Positions 14,178 through 39,831 of a stretch of DNA of 64,000 bases are shown here, in pieces. The stretch's first letter is position 1. Each line of letters opens with the position of its first letter. The stretch is taken from contig NZ_JHWH01000010.1 in NCBI RefSeq assembly GCF_000622145.1, positions 13,395 to 77,394 of the forward strand. The letters are read 5' to 3'. A program made the translations under genes and the position numbers. The notes under the pieces are model-generated. The model saw only the letters and a list, made by a program, of their open reading frames with translations, was not told where the DNA came from and made no database searches. The stretch comes from Paracoccus yeei ATCC BAA-599 (GTDB lineage Bacteria; Pseudomonadota; Alphaproteobacteria; Rhodobacterales; Rhodobacteraceae).

Positions 14178-14998
14178 CGCAGATCCTCCGGCTGGACGAA
14201 GTCCATGTCCGTGTAATCCACGTTGTCGCCCGCCATCGCCCAGATGAAGGTATAGCCGCCGATCCCCGCCCCCGCATGGATCGACCAGGGCGGAGAGATC
14301 ACCGCCTGTTCATTGGCGACGAACAGGTGGCGGGTCTCCTGCGGCTCGCCCATCAGGTGCAGGACGCGGGCCTGCGGCTCCATGCCGTGATAAAGATAGG
14401 CCTCCATCCGCCGGTCGTGGACATGGGCCGGCATGGTGTTCCAGACCGACCCGTCCTCCAGCGTGGTATAGCCCAGGACCAGCTGGCAGCTTTCCATGAC
14501 CAGCGGGTGGATGAACTGGCGGATCGTGCGCTTGTTCGAGGTCTCGACCGCGCCGGTCTTCATCTCCTTGGCATCGGCCACGGTCACCAGCCGCGCGGGC
14601 AGCGCCCGGTGCGCCGGGCAGGAGGTGATGTAGAACCGCCCCTGCCCCGAGAACGTCACCGGCCCCGCGCCCATGCCCAGGTAAAGCACGTCGCCCTGCG
14701 CCATGTCCCAGGCCTGTCCCCCGGCCTCGACCCGGCCGGGGCCGCCGATGTTGACGACGCCGATCTCGCGCCGCTCCAGGAAGGTGGCGGTCTTCGTCTC
14801 GGCGATCCGGTCCAGCACCAGGGCCGCGCCGTCCGGCACCGCGGCCCCGACGACGAAACGGTCGTAATGGGTATAGACCAGCCGGATCTCGCCGGGGGCA
14901 AAGATGCCCTCGGCCAGGAAATGGCGGCGCAGGGCGGCGGTGTCCATCGCGCGGGCATGATCGGGATGGACCGCCTGGCGGGTTTCGACATGGATCAT
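14174..14998 (-). CDS. kduI: 5-dehydro-4-deoxy-D-glucuronate isomerase KduI
   Basis: A 274-residue cupin-fold isomerase of full family length, with LVYTHYDRFVVGAAVP, NIGGPG, MPAHVHDRRMEAYLYH and the terminal FVQPEDLR. KduI converts 5-keto-4-deoxyuronate (DKI) to 2,5-diketo-3-deoxygluconate, the substrate of KduD. The metal-binding histidines lie in HVHDRRMEAY. The ATG at 14998 starts MIHVETRQAVHP and is preceded by a purine-rich CAAG; the longer frame upstream has no family similarity. It follows kdgF by 11 bp and is coupled to kduD. Confidence 0.93.
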   Translation of the reverse strand: MIHVETRQAVHPDHARAMDTAALRRHFLAEGIFAPGEIRLVYTHYDRFVVGAAVPDGAALVLDRIAETKTATFLERREIGVVNIGGPGRVEAGGQAWDMAQGDVLYLGMGAGPVTFSGQGRFYITSCPAHRALPARLVTVADAKEMKTGAVETSNKRTIRQFIHPLVMESCQLVLGYTTLEDGSVWNTMPAHVHDRRMEAYLYHGMEPQARVLHLMGEPQETRHLFVANEQAVISPPWSIHAGAGIGGYTFIWAMAGDNVDYTDMDFVQPEDLR

Positions 14999-15009
14999 CT
15001 TGGGGCCTT

Positions 15010-15291
15010 TCACAGGAAATCGTCGCGGCGGGGCGTGAAGCTGTCGATCAGCGTCCCGGCCTCCAGGCATTCGCAGCCATGTTCGGCGCCCGAGGGGATG
15101 ACGAACGCATCCCCCGGGCCCACCTCAAGGCTGCGGCCGTCCACCGAAAAGCGGTAGCGCCCGGATTGCACATAGGTCGATTGCACATGCGGGTGGCTGT
15201 GCAGATCGCCCCGGTCGCCGGTCCGGAAATCAAAGCGGACGACCATCAGGTCTGGCGCGTGGGCCAGCACGGTGCGGACAGGCGCGCTCAT
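15010..15291 (-). CDS. kdgF: KdgF, cupin that linearises unsaturated uronates
   Basis: A 93-residue single-domain cupin. The metal-binding motif is visible as HSHPHVQSTYV (two histidines and the glutamine position) with the fourth ligand in PSGAEHGC. Its length and motif spacing match KdgF, which converts 4,5-unsaturated monouronates to the linear ketouronate DKI used by KduI. The start ATG at 15291 overlaps the TRAP large-permease stop by ATGA. Position between the TRAP genes and kduI supports the role strongly. Confidence 0.85.
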   Translation of the reverse strand: MSAPVRTVLAHAPDLMVVRFDFRTGDRGDLHSHPHVQSTYVQSGRYRFSVDGRSLEVGPGDAFVIPSGAEHGCECLEAGTLIDSFTPRRDDFL

Positions 15292-35526: not shown

Positions 35527-36939
35527 ATGCTAGAGCGCCTGAAGGCCATGTTCCGGTCGGACGATGTGATCTCGACCCTGTCGGTTTTCCCCGAGATCGA
35601 CGAGGAAAAGATCCAGCGCGAGCTGGCGCTTGAATCCCAGGGCCGCGACCGGGGGGCCCGCAACCAGCCCGAGCCTTCCGCGCAGGAGCCCGATCATATC
35701 GAGACCGCGATCATCACCCGGATCGAGGCGCTGCGCCGCACCGGGCTGGAGAACTACGAACAGTATCGCCGCGTCTACAACGAACGCCTGGCCCGCGCGG
35801 GCGACGCCAAGAAAGAGGTCGAGATCGTCGCGGGCCGCGCGCGCAACGAATTCGGCGCCTCGGTCCAGGGATGGAAGACGACGATGACGCCGACCATCGA
35901 GCGGCTGAACGAAACCTATACCTATCGCCGCCATTTCCGCGACCGGCACCGGCTGATCCGCCCCGCCCGACAGTTCGAGGGCTGGGTCAAGTTCGCCGCG
36001 CTGGCGGTCATCTACATCGTCATCGAATCGGCGATGAACAGCTTCATGTTCTCGCGCGGGAACGAATCCGGGCTGCTGGGCGGGCTGCTGACCGCCTTCA
36101 TCTTTTCGGCGCTGAACGTTCTGGTCAGCATCCTGATGGGCTATTTCGCGCGCTATGTGAACCACACCAACCTGCTGAAAAAGCTGTTCGGCCTGCTGGT
36201 GATCCTGGCCTGGATCGGGTTCGCGGTCGCGCTGAACCTGATGATCGCCCATTTTCGCGACCTGATCGACGCCGGCGCGACATGGGAGGCCGCGTTGCGC
36301 CAGGCGGTCCCGAACCTGACCGCCGGCCCCGTGGCGCTGACCGGCATGGACAGCTGGATCCTGGTGGGGATCGGCGGCTTCATCTCGACCCTCGCCTTTC
36401 TCAAGGGCTGGACTGCCGAGGACCCGTTCCCCGGCTATTCCCAGGTCGAAGGCGAATTGGCCCGCGCCCGCCGCCGGCACGAGATCGACATGACCCGTGC
36501 GCTGGACGAACTGACCGACCGCCGCGACGAAGCGATCGAGGAGCTGCGCGACGCCGACCGCCAGGTGCGCGACGGCATCACCGAGGCCATCGACGCGCTG
36601 TTCGGCCAAAGCGCGCTGAACGCGCATCTGGAAACCTTCCTGGAACAGTGCGATCTGAAGCTGGCGCATCTGCTGGCGGTCTATCGCGACGCGAACCGCA
36701 ACGCCCGGACCGAACCCGCGCCGCCCAGCTTTGCCCGCGTCCACCGCTTTGCCGCCTTCACCCCCGCCCGGATCGAGGACGGGCGCAAGACCAATGCCGA
36801 GGCCGAGGCCGCCAAGGTCACCGAGACCGTCGATGCCGCCATCGCCGACATCTTTGCGCAGTTCGAAAACGCCCGCCGCGAGTTTCGCCTGCCCGAAGAA
36901 ATCCAGCGCGGCGACCACCTGGCGGCGGGGCGGGCCTGA
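35527..36939 (+). CDS. Unknown membrane protein with coiled coils, first gene of a MotAB/ZorAB-like operon
   Basis: A 470-residue protein I do not recognise. Residues 1-145 are soluble, charged and largely helical. Four membrane helices follow at about 153-173, 183-208, 219-242 and 277-295. Residues 300-470 form a second long charged helical region (VEGELARARRRHEIDMTRALDE-like spacing) rich in Arg, Glu and Asp. Start ATG 35527 has a GAAGGAAA ribosome site. It overlaps the next gene by one base (TGATG). Codon use looks like its neighbours, with no sign of recent transfer. Its role is inferred only from the operon: a membrane partner of the MotA/ExbB-like and OmpA-like proteins. Confidence 0.75.
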   Translation: MLERLKAMFRSDDVISTLSVFPEIDEEKIQRELALESQGRDRGARNQPEPSAQEPDHIETAIITRIEALRRTGLENYEQYRRVYNERLARAGDAKKEVEIVAGRARNEFGASVQGWKTTMTPTIERLNETYTYRRHFRDRHRLIRPARQFEGWVKFAALAVIYIVIESAMNSFMFSRGNESGLLGGLLTAFIFSALNVLVSILMGYFARYVNHTNLLKKLFGLLVILAWIGFAVALNLMIAHFRDLIDAGATWEAALRQAVPNLTAGPVALTGMDSWILVGIGGFISTLAFLKGWTAEDPFPGYSQVEGELARARRRHEIDMTRALDELTDRRDEAIEELRDADRQVRDGITEAIDALFGQSALNAHLETFLEQCDLKLAHLLAVYRDANRNARTEPAPPSFARVHRFAAFTPARIEDGRKTNAEAEAAKVTETVDAAIADIFAQFENARREFRLPEEIQRGDHLAAGRA

Positions 36940-37772
36940 TGGCGGCGCGGTCCAGACGCCGCCGCCACAGCCGCGGCCGGGGCCATGGCGGCGGCCTCAA
37001 GACCGCGGGCATCGTGATCCTGGCCGTGCTGCTGTCGGCCGGCATGGGCGCCGCCGCCTGGTGGCACAGCCGCCAGCAGCGCGCCGCGGCCATCGACCAG
37101 ACCACGCTTTGCCCCACGGCCACCGGCCCCGTCGGCATGACGGCGATCCTGCTGGACCTGACCGACGCCCTGTCGCCCGCGCAGAAATCCCAGCTTCTGG
37201 GCTATCTGGAACAAGAGATCGACGATGCGCCGCAGGGAACCCAGTTTACCCTGGGGGTGGTCAGCGCCGACCCGGACCAATGGGGCGCGACGCCGCCGCT
37301 CTGCAAGCCGCAGGACGTCAGCACCGCCAGCGCCCTGACCCAGAACCCGGGCCTGATCGCCAAGCGCTATCGCGACCGCTTCCTGCAGCCCCTGCAGGAC
37401 AACATCGCCCGGATGACGGCGGCCAGCGGCGCCAAGCAGTCCCCCATCATGGAATCCCTGCAGGCGCTGATCGCGGACACGCCGGGCTTTGTCACCTATG
37501 ACGGGCCGCGCCGGGTCCTGCTGGTGTCGGACCTGCTGCAACACAGCGACGCGCTCAGCTTCTATCGCGGGAACGACTGGCAAAGCTTTGCGAAATCCCC
37601 GGCCTACCAGCGGCTGGGGGCGACGCTCGGCGATGCCGAGATCCGCATCTTCCAGGTGCCGCGCCCGCTGGAGGGCGTCGACGACCCCGCCGTGCTGGAG
37701 GATTTCTGGGCGCGCTATTTCGACGTCCAGGGGGCGCATCTGCCGGTCTTGAAACGCCTGGGGGACCTTTAG
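36939..37772 (+). CDS. Membrane-anchored VWA-like protein of unknown function
   Basis: A 277-residue protein with a very basic N-terminus (MAARSRRRRHSRGRG), one membrane helix at about 23-42 and an exported domain. The domain has alternating strand/helix character that resembles a von Willebrand A fold: AILLDLTDALSP at 69-80 is a DxT-type first metal motif, KQSPIMESLQALI follows in the middle, and RVLLVSDLLQHS at 192-203 ends a strand. Cysteines at about 58 and 122 could form a disulfide. I call the fold from pattern only; no family name is claimed. Start at 36939 overlaps the upstream stop, so translation is coupled. Confidence 0.7.
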   Translation: MAARSRRRRHSRGRGHGGGLKTAGIVILAVLLSAGMGAAAWWHSRQQRAAAIDQTTLCPTATGPVGMTAILLDLTDALSPAQKSQLLGYLEQEIDDAPQGTQFTLGVVSADPDQWGATPPLCKPQDVSTASALTQNPGLIAKRYRDRFLQPLQDNIARMTAASGAKQSPIMESLQALIADTPGFVTYDGPRRVLLVSDLLQHSDALSFYRGNDWQSFAKSPAYQRLGATLGDAEIRIFQVPRPLEGVDDPAVLEDFWARYFDVQGAHLPVLKRLGDL

Positions 37773-38798
37773 ATGGCGCGCGGCGACCCCGACCGGCTGT
37801 ATGGCCGGGGGCCCCGGCCGATGCTGGACAGCCTGCCGCTGGCGCTGGCCTTCCTGGCAGGCACCGTTGGCGGCATCGCGTTGAAGCTGGCCCAGGCGCC
37901 GGCGCTGCTGACCGCGGGCTTCGCCGCCGCCGTCCTGGTCGCCTATGCGCTGTTCAGCTATGCCGCGACCCGGCTGCGGCTGGATACGGAAACCATCGGC
38001 GACAACTGCTATTACCTCGGCTTCCTGTTCACGCTGACCAGCCTGGCCGTGACGCTGTATTTCGTGGTCGAGGCCGCGCCGGAGACGCGCGCCGACCTGA
38101 TCCCGCAGGTGATCTCGGGCTTTGGGGTGGCACTGTCGTCCACCATCGTGGGGGTGTTCCTGCGGGTGCTGATGATGCAACTGCGCGTCGATCTGGACCT
38201 GCGCGAACGCCGCACGAGGATCGAGCTGGATGAGGCCGCCCGGCGCTTCCGGTCCGAACTGGGCGTCAGCCTGGGCCGGGTCAAGAACTTCTCGACCGAA
38301 AGCCTGCAACACGCCTCCGAGCGCGAGGACAGGATGCGCGAGGCGATGGATCGGCTGATGGCCCAGATGCAGGCCGAACTGCTGAAATCGGCCGCCGACT
38401 TCGGCCCGGCGCTGCGCGACACCATGCGCGCCCAGACCGATCAGGTCATGGCCGACGTGACCGAGGCGGTGCGCGAAAGCTCGACCGCCGCCTGCGAGGC
38501 GATCCGCCAGGCCATGACCGAACTGGCGCAGGTCGCGCAGACCTTCAGCCGCGACCAGGCCGGGGCGGCGCAGGCCGTGGCGCAAAGCGTGGACAGCCTG
38601 AAAGCCAGCGCCGAGGCCCTGGCCCTGGGCACGGAACAAAGCCTTGCCCGGCTGAACGCCGCCGCGACCGGCGGGGCGGACTGGGCCGAAAGCCTCGGCG
38701 CCCGGATCGAGGCCGAGACCGAGGCCCTGGGCGCCGCCCTGTCGAACGCCGCCCGCCGCCTGGACCAGGTCGCGCCCCAAGGCTCGGGCGATGCCTAG
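37773..38798 (+). CDS. MotA/TolQ/ExbB-like (ZorA-like) membrane protein with long helical tail
   Basis: A 341-residue protein with helices at about 21-37, 44-66, 80-99 and 110-135, then a 200-residue polar, alanine-rich helical tail. Helices 3 and 4 (YYLGFLFTLTSLAV and VISGFGVALSSTIVGVFLRV) follow the small-residue pattern of the MotA/TolQ/ExbB channel, where the last helices line the proton path. A long cytosolic tail after that module is a feature of ZorA. It starts directly after the previous stop and overlaps the OmpA-like gene by 8 bp. The superfamily assignment is by pattern and genomic partner, not by search. Confidence 0.65.
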   Translation: MARGDPDRLYGRGPRPMLDSLPLALAFLAGTVGGIALKLAQAPALLTAGFAAAVLVAYALFSYAATRLRLDTETIGDNCYYLGFLFTLTSLAVTLYFVVEAAPETRADLIPQVISGFGVALSSTIVGVFLRVLMMQLRVDLDLRERRTRIELDEAARRFRSELGVSLGRVKNFSTESLQHASEREDRMREAMDRLMAQMQAELLKSAADFGPALRDTMRAQTDQVMADVTEAVRESSTAACEAIRQAMTELAQVAQTFSRDQAGAAQAVAQSVDSLKASAEALALGTEQSLARLNAAATGGADWAESLGARIEAETEALGAALSNAARRLDQVAPQGSGDA

Positions 38799-39831
38799 GA
38801 TCGCGCCCCGCCCCGGCGGCAGCCGCGACTACAAGCGCGGCGCGATCATGGGCCTGACCGTGGCCGAGGCCTTCATCCTGCTGGCCTTCTGCCTGCTTCT
38901 GCTGTTCACCTGGTGGCAAGTGGACACCGAGAAACGCTCGATCACCGTGGCCGACCGCCTCGGCGAACTGACCGAGCAGCAAAAGCAGGATCTGGTCGCC
39001 GGCCTGTCCGACGGCACCTTCGACTTGGCCCGCACGCTGCGCGAGGCGGGCATCGTCGGCGGCGAACAGGCCTTGGCCGAAACCAGCCAATACAGCCGCT
39101 TCATGCGCGAGGAAGATCTGAAGCGCCTGATGCAGGCCACGGTGGAGCTGTCCCCCGACACCCGCCTGACCCTGGCCGACGCGGTCGAGGTCACGCCCGA
39201 AGCCGAGCTGCGCGATGCCTTGCGGAAACTGGCCGCGCGCGAGGACAGCGTCGAACAGGCCAGCCGCCGCCTGGCCGAGGCGACCGAGACCCAGGACCGC
39301 GCCGTCGCCATGCTGGACCGCGCCCTTGGCCAGGACATCCGCGCGGCCGGCGGGCAGATCGACGGGAACGGCACGATCACCCTGCCCCAGAACGTCCTGT
39401 TCGACCCCGGCAGCGACCGCATTCGCAACCTGCCCTTCCTGCGCGACTTCTGCACCGCCTGGATCGGCACGCTCCGCGATTCGGGACTGGACATCGCGAA
39501 CCTCAAGATCGAGGGCCATGCCTCGAGCGAGGGGCGGCCGGGCGAGACGCCCGAGCAGGCCTATCTGTCGAACCTGGACCTGTCGCAGCGCCGTGCGCAG
39601 AACGCGCTGACGACCTGCCTGAACGGCATCCGCGACCCCCGGACGCTGGCCTGGGCGCGCGAACACCTGTCGGCGGCGGGCTATTCCTCGGCCCGGCCGG
39701 TGGTGCAGGCCGACGGCAGCGAAGACCGCGAAAAATCCCGCCGCGTGATGTTTGCCATGGACGTGGACCGCGAGGCGCTGATCGACGGCATCCGCGAGGA
39801 CCTGACAAGCACCCCGCCCGCCTTGCCCTGA
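38791..39831 (+). CDS. MotB/ZorB-like protein with C-terminal OmpA-like domain
   Basis: A 346-residue protein with a short basic N-terminus, one membrane helix at about 21-42 (LTVAEAFILLAFCLLLLFTW), a helical periplasmic linker to about residue 195, and an OmpA/MotB-like domain. The domain runs from NVLFDPGSDRI through LKIEGHASSEG to LSQRRAQNAL. Glu26 inside the helix lies where MotB/ZorB/ExbD carry their proton-accepting Asp. The domain keeps the arginine of LS.RRA, but the usual GHTD aspartate is replaced (GHAS), so peptidoglycan binding may differ. Last gene of the operon. Confidence 0.75.
   Translation: MPRIAPRPGGSRDYKRGAIMGLTVAEAFILLAFCLLLLFTWWQVDTEKRSITVADRLGELTEQQKQDLVAGLSDGTFDLARTLREAGIVGGEQALAETSQYSRFMREEDLKRLMQATVELSPDTRLTLADAVEVTPEAELRDALRKLAAREDSVEQASRRLAEATETQDRAVAMLDRALGQDIRAAGGQIDGNGTITLPQNVLFDPGSDRIRNLPFLRDFCTAWIGTLRDSGLDIANLKIEGHASSEGRPGETPEQAYLSNLDLSQRRAQNALTTCLNGIRDPRTLAWAREHLSAAGYSSARPVVQADGSEDREKSRRVMFAMDVDREALIDGIREDLTSTPPALP

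Follow-up and report, generated by a model that had tools for sequence, protein, structure and literature searches.

A four-gene operon of Paracoccus yeei with a ZorA/ZorB-like motor pair, a likely Zorya-like defence system

The known or suspected effectors of Zorya systems of types I and II are separate proteins, ZorC/ZorD and ZorE, and the route from the Zorya motor at the injection site to the attack on phage DNA is called unclear (PMC11890865, PMC13190303). Zorya localises to injection sites (PMC13190303), and for types I and II the Asp in the transmembrane (TM) helix of ZorB is reported to be crucial to defence (PMC11890865). In SNIPE, a membrane-anchored nuclease acts at phage DNA entry and location serves as the non-self cue; it is a single protein (DUF4041 plus GIY-YIG), and its nuclease side has been shown to face the cytoplasm (PMC13190303). 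Inner-membrane vWA proteins have been described beside TolQ-like motors, one family resembling TolA/TonB and the other lacking a tolR/exbD/motB partner (PMC12204202). Here, an operon of four genes (A to D, Table 1) was analysed, which lies in a stretch of 64,000 nucleotides from Paracoccus yeei ATCC BAA-599 (contig NZ_JHWH01000010.1, positions 13,395 to 77,394; called the window below). Judged by sequence comparison, the cassette best fits the description of a new Zorya-like type whose nucleases are exchangeable and probably periplasmic. The literature (titles and abstract openings; subscription papers and preprints outside the search) yielded no description of the four-gene system.

The motor pair C-D and its closest relatives

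The initial annotation had read the operon as an ion-driven envelope machine with a MotAB/ZorAB-like pair and a possible defence role. This reading was supported: by profile and structure comparison, C is homologous to ZorA, as a motor subunit of the ZorA/ExbB/MotA type, and D to ZorB, both being nearest to type II. The AlphaFold model of C (326 residues, from position 37818) consisted entirely of helices, four of them at the N-terminus, and its tail extended to residue 318 (helices 88-194 and 199-318; the last hydrophobic segment stops near residue 120). The helical tail comprises roughly 190-200 residues, and one N-terminal helix lies beyond the matched ZorA core. C matched ZorA at 95.1% in profile comparison and the PADLOC model ZorA2 at 1.3e-6, and a type II ZorA stood at the top of the structure search (Foldseek and VIA; Foldseek E 0.07). 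The MotA/ExbB-like protein with a 200-residue tail of the initial annotation was supported. Thr72, Ser108 and Thr109 were invariant among C proteins (numbering of the 326-residue model).

D consists of a single TM helix, a linker and an OmpA/ZorB-type domain, which together with the C-terminal match to ZorB confirms its annotation as a MotB-like protein with an OmpA domain. Matches to ZorB covered this C-terminal domain, with an E-value of 1.9e-29 (8vvi_A; MotB, 6e-9) and 99.94% in profile comparison. PADLOC ZorB models were matched down to 2.5e-25. The score against Pfam OmpA (25.8 bits) was slightly below the cut-off of 27.2, and the curated threshold of NCBIfam ZorB2 was missed (64.3 bits, cut-off 400). 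D was far nearer to ZorB than to MotB or TolR, which sets it apart from flagellar, Tol and Ton subunits. The acidic residue of its TM helix is Glu (Glu26 in the window) in all 38 D proteins of the loci described below and in all of the best 120 of 252 homologues, whereas all six comparison ZorB proteins carry Asp at that place. Neither this Glu nor the nuclease fusions described below figured in the initial annotation.

With Zorya type II, the cassette shares the homologous motor pair with its pore motifs, the long helical tail and the peptidoglycan-binding domain. It differs in having four genes with no ZorE and with A and B new, in the Glu of D, and in the nuclease of those copies that have one, which is joined to the end of D predicted to be periplasmic. 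The model of C shows an additional first helix and is free of strands, whereas a figure legend of PMC12505986 names extra beta-sheet as a mark of Zorya-type A subunits. Types I and III (ZorC/ZorD, ZorF/ZorG) have the ZorA/ZorB-type core in common with the cassette, but neither A nor B was matched by any PADLOC model at E<=1, in keeping with the initial statement that the partners are unlike ZorC, D, E, F or G. Membership in Zorya types I-III as defined was rejected, since the TM-helix Asp and the partner genes fail. Flagellar MotAB, TolQR and ExbBD resemble the cassette in the general motor fold of C and, for MotB, in the helix-plus-OmpA plan of D, but D matches them less well than ZorB and the partner genes are others. 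The likeness to the vWA/TolQ-like families lies in B, a TM-anchored, possibly vWA-like periplasmic protein in a motor operon; the cassette has a ZorA/ZorB pair and a fourth protein with four TM segments instead, and the vWA nature of B is putative. In contrast to that of SNIPE, the cassette nuclease is predicted to be periplasmic, is of SNase or HNH type and forms part of the motor protein.

Six comparison loci (L200-L205) were chosen by the match of their ZorB to the profile of D, and their ZorA-like and ZorB-like proteins gave type II as best structure match. Two of these loci from different genomes (L200:7510-8499 and L201:6212-7156) both lie near a pqqB-like gene, a label given by reading alone.

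Fused nucleases, distribution and neighbourhood

Among the 38 locus D proteins, 15 carried an SNase domain beyond the OmpA domain and five a GmrSD_C/HNH domain. In a search with a nuclease-free profile, 54 of the best 120 of 252 D homologues had SNase and 15 a GmrSD-type HNH domain. Pfam was run on seven of the 20 fusion proteins; SNase scored above the cut-off in four and slightly below in one, and GmrSD_C above the cut-off in two. In a quickly built tree of the D core, the nuclease state shifted at least 27 times, fewer than the 50 shifts for shuffled labels; the state is thus inherited, yet often lost, gained or exchanged. Both motif blocks that we take to be catalytic, after staphylococcal nuclease, were kept in 46 of 51 SNase parts, and exactly four cysteines were present in all 51. 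Because the OmpA domain should bind peptidoglycan, a nuclease located past it should be periplasmic; the fused nuclease is thus probably periplasmic, and the four cysteines are consistent with this. In five more loci, an SNase gene lies no more than about 1 kb from D; in L016, L028 and L036 it directly follows D on the same strand. The genes of L016 and L036 start with a hydrophobic, signal-like segment (by eye) and were confirmed by Pfam; that of L028 was not. One D protein with SNase (P0346, Roseovarius sp. THAF8) bears the source name 'Succinoglycan biosynthesis protein ExoI', possibly a misannotation derived from the nuclease domain.

Loci were scanned with one genome per species, which gave 79 loci (best 80 of 84 matches). 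In 38 of 40 loci (L008-L047), A-B-C-D occurred in the same order and on the same strand; in L009 the contig ends after A, and in L047 D was not detected. The hosts were mostly Rhodobacterales, together with a Rhodospirillales metagenome-assembled genome (MAG), a Hyphomonadaceae MAG and two Gammaproteobacteria (Vreelandella, L039; an Oceanospirillaceae MAG, L046). Few candidates were scored per genome in the presence counts of A, which, with the source genome included in each, were 4 of 25 genomes at genus level, 4 of 295 at family level (single-sequence search, one match weak) and 11 of 292 at order level (profile search). Outside the cassette, one gene cluster recurred in four of the 40 loci and seven in three loci; the latter include four that three Jannaschia loci have in common, as well as the SNase gene found in L016, L019 and L036. 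Because few outside clusters recur, the cassette is taken to occupy many different sites. It is real, conserved and apparently mobile. The other 39 loci (L048-L086, mostly Hyphomonas and Henriciella) had a distant A, accompanied by B in 37, and C and D were undetected in them; in ten genomes of this group, a search for D (C not being searched there) found no full D. Therefore A-B can exist independently of the motor, and in these bacteria it is possibly an older, housekeeping envelope pair.

The flanks were compared with PADLOC models, using 130 inner genes (>=150 residues; three of 133 chosen genes left out for size) and 103 outer genes (>=200 residues, none >1,700). Control 1 comprised 120 genes of 20 random stretches from seven cassette-bearing genomes (the seventh gene per stretch was dropped, reducing 140 to 120), and control 2 comprised 120 genes (>=200 residues) of 20 further stretches from six of these genomes; the control genomes are few and the control stretches came from larger contigs. 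PADLOC set counts refer to families, the first 25 of which are named, and are not assigned to member genes. At E<=1e-20, 81 families were matched in the inner genes and two (three matches) in control 1. Thirty inner genes were checked singly and included ten defence genes at E<=1e-40, located in five of the 40 loci (Table 1); the 100 remaining inner genes may add loci to this figure. At gene level, at least 10 of 130 inner genes therefore stand against none of 120 in control 1. The outer genes matched 40 families at E<=1e-40, versus one family in control 2, and their matches include Lamassu LmuA and LmuB, PglX, DpdF, Cmr4 and a type IIG enzyme. In a Cypionkella MAG (L014:6577-18886), the cassette lies between the candidate defence gene HEC-05 and Cas9-Cas1.

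Function, mechanism and rival explanations

As many relatives fuse a nuclease to the predicted outer end of the motor, the cassette is likely a new defence that would attack DNA before cell entry. We regard it as fairly probable that C-D and A-B together constitute an inner-membrane machine against phages or foreign DNA, which damage to the envelope where injection occurs would trigger. In this machine, five C and two D subunits would form an ion channel, as in ZorAB. Upon phage penetration, the OmpA domains of D would engage peptidoglycan and the channel would open; ion flow past Glu26 would turn the C bundle, whose tail would pass the torque on to the two long helices of A. On the periplasmic side, B would sense, brace or report. 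In the fusion relatives, a nuclease held at the periplasmic injection site would cut incoming DNA, and as the own chromosome is absent from the periplasm, location would serve to tell self from non-self. The window copy, possibly a reduced form, would work through A and B, either by themselves or joined by a nuclease whose gene lies elsewhere. A bolder version is put forward tentatively, at slightly less than an even chance: the cassette would be a fourth Zorya-like kind, a periplasmic, peptidoglycan-gripping, Glu-gated motor whose exchangeable outer nuclease heads shred phage DNA and which tells self from foreign by compartment alone, with A-B, once an independent envelope module, coupling the motor to a membrane response.

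The same proteins might form an envelope machine of the Tol/Ton/vWA kind, in which C-D exerts force on the wall or outer membrane during growth or stress, B is a periplasmic transducer, and the nucleases serve nutrition or the clearance of extracellular DNA. This is unlikely, as D is much closer to ZorB than to MotB, A is patchily present in family and order, the flanks are rich in defence-gene matches where random stretches are poor, and conflict systems typically exchange unrelated nuclease domains. That a periplasmic nuclease could strike any incoming DNA, and that D occurs on six Paracoccus plasmid records, where excluding other DNA could pay, speaks for a gate against plasmid or environmental DNA, a barrier to natural transformation or conjugation instead of phages. 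A peptidoglycan-sensing motor is not obviously needed for free DNA, however, and ZorAB motors are known from phage defence (PMC11890865); we hold this explanation to be quite improbable. Exchangeable C-terminal nucleases and a type VI secretion VgrG gene near the operon of P. aminovorans would also suit a polymorphic-toxin-like role, with D as carrier, its nuclease delivered to competitors and the motor powering release. No immunity-like gene recurs behind D, though, with few outside clusters reaching three or four of 40 loci (short or diverse genes would escape), and D is predicted to be tethered twice, through the TM helix to the motor and through the OmpA domain to peptidoglycan, which makes this role very improbable.

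Several observations weigh against the defence machine proposed above. The gene-level excess of defence genes (Fisher 0.0017) is weakened because genes belonging to the same locus are not independent; the per-locus excess was not significant (5/40 versus 0/20, Fisher 0.16; versus 1/40 for both controls, 0.20). Defence-gene neighbours of these kinds were absent at the window copy, and efflux, regulator and arabinose genes adjoin the cassette in the plasmids matching the window. With regard to the neighbourhood survey proposed in the initial annotation, the gene order is conserved, and an excess of defence genes is clear by gene but not significant by locus and not seen at the window copy. The TM part of C by itself matched ZorA weakly (19%) and was without a PDB sequence match. 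The Glu of D replaces the ion-binding Asp conserved in ZorB, their equivalence being one of helix position, as the D-ZorB profile alignment spans the C-terminal domain only. Fused nucleases were lacking in 51 of the best 120 of 252 D homologues. Searched with both nuclease profiles, the window gave no match to an SNase or HNH domain of the kinds fused to D in relatives, and no broken nuclease remnant was present behind the stop codon of D. Nearby SNase genes of L011 and L019 are on the opposite strand, and since SNase genes are common across the class, part of the D-adjacent ones may be coincidence. Finally, A-B without motor keeps stable neighbours within groups (Hyphomonas, Henriciella). The window D belongs to a well-supported tree set of 28 proteins, and because 13 of these carry SNase, loss of the nuclease is plausible; elsewhere in the source genome, at least one free SNase is encoded (contig C50).

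Two unrelated kinds of nuclease, fused many times to the wall-gripping end of a motor, join motor and nucleic-acid attack in one polypeptide, and the fusion predicts where the cut is made. If the proposed defence is true, it would provide a testable case of immunity by compartment and a motor family in which Asp has naturally changed to Glu. Defence-finding tools would also gain a type, PADLOC missing A and B and matching C and D in part.

Genes A and B, the host copy and minor observations

The tight coupling of the four genes noted initially was confirmed, with one base shared by A and B, B and C abutting (TAG, ATG) and an overlap of eight bases between C and D. Several C proteins of relatives align from the ATG at 37773.

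Table 1. Features of the operon (window coordinates) and defence genes found in the inner flanks of related loci
Feature	Location	Strand	Remarks
Gene A	35527-36939	+	open reading frame, 470 aa
Gene A TM region	about 35983-36411	+	four hydrophobic segments, aa 156-292
Gene B	36939-37772	+	open reading frame, 277 aa
Gene B N-terminal TM	aa 22-40	+	hydrophobic segment; then predicted periplasmic domain
Gene C	37773-38798	+	open reading frame, 341 aa counted from ATG 37773
Gene D	38791-39831	+	open reading frame, 346 aa
D Glu26 codon	38866-38868	+	in single TM helix
D OmpA/ZorB-type peptidoglycan-binding domain	about 39400-39741	+	profile matches; binding predicted
Druantia DruE, DruH	L009		inner flank, PADLOC E<=1e-40
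Cas9, Cas1, HEC-05	L014		inner flank, PADLOC E<=1e-40
Type II restriction pair	L020		inner flank, PADLOC E<=1e-40
Cas10	L031		inner flank, PADLOC E<=1e-40
BREX BrxL, PglZ	L035		inner flank, PADLOC E<=1e-40

In the AlphaFold model of A (mean predicted local distance difference test score, pLDDT, 87.3), long helices (57-141 and 304-393), presumably cytoplasmic, flank the TM segments. The motifs AHFRD, YRDAN and DPxPGY are conserved, and no PDB match was obtained at E<=0.001. Neither A nor B came close to the cut-off of any Pfam or NCBIfam family; the two would, if this holds true, be two new membrane protein families.

B had been annotated as an anchored VWA-like protein. The anchor, one N-terminal TM segment, was confirmed; the VWA label received weak support from profile comparison (hhalign, weak match, 12.5%, E 0.0023), and Pfam gave no match to VWA. 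In 91 aligned sequences, Cys58, Cys122, Asp73, Asp76 and Ser168 were invariant, both cysteines being present in all 91, and Asp198 was near-invariant. In the weak profile match, Ser168 and Asp198 lie close to where the VWA profile has its T and D sites. The first motif of B is Dx(S/T)D; we take the metal ion-dependent adhesion site of the VWA fold to be DxSxS, T, D. B is possibly VWA-like on these grounds.

The source genome (4.4 Mb, 70 contigs) encodes a D that shares 98-99% identity with a protein of four P. yeei plasmids (268-482 kb), and the window cassette is probably located on such a plasmid. In two P. yeei plasmid records, the operon is annotated as three hypothetical proteins followed by an 'OmpA family protein', flanked by a FadR/GntR regulator on one side and, on the other, by a DeoR regulator accompanied by sugar-transport and arabinose genes. 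The window copy is set among metabolic genes. In P. aminovorans, the operon lies on plasmid IV (L206:3698-11020), with the VgrG gene on the opposite strand. At the contig end of L010, an open reading frame after D (14820-15038) resembles the start of a transposase (by reading alone). A mobilizable Psychrobacter plasmid of 7.5 kb carries an apparent plain type II Zorya trio (L178:342-2979), consisting of a hypothetical protein, an OmpA-family protein and an HNH protein, which takes up about a third of the plasmid.

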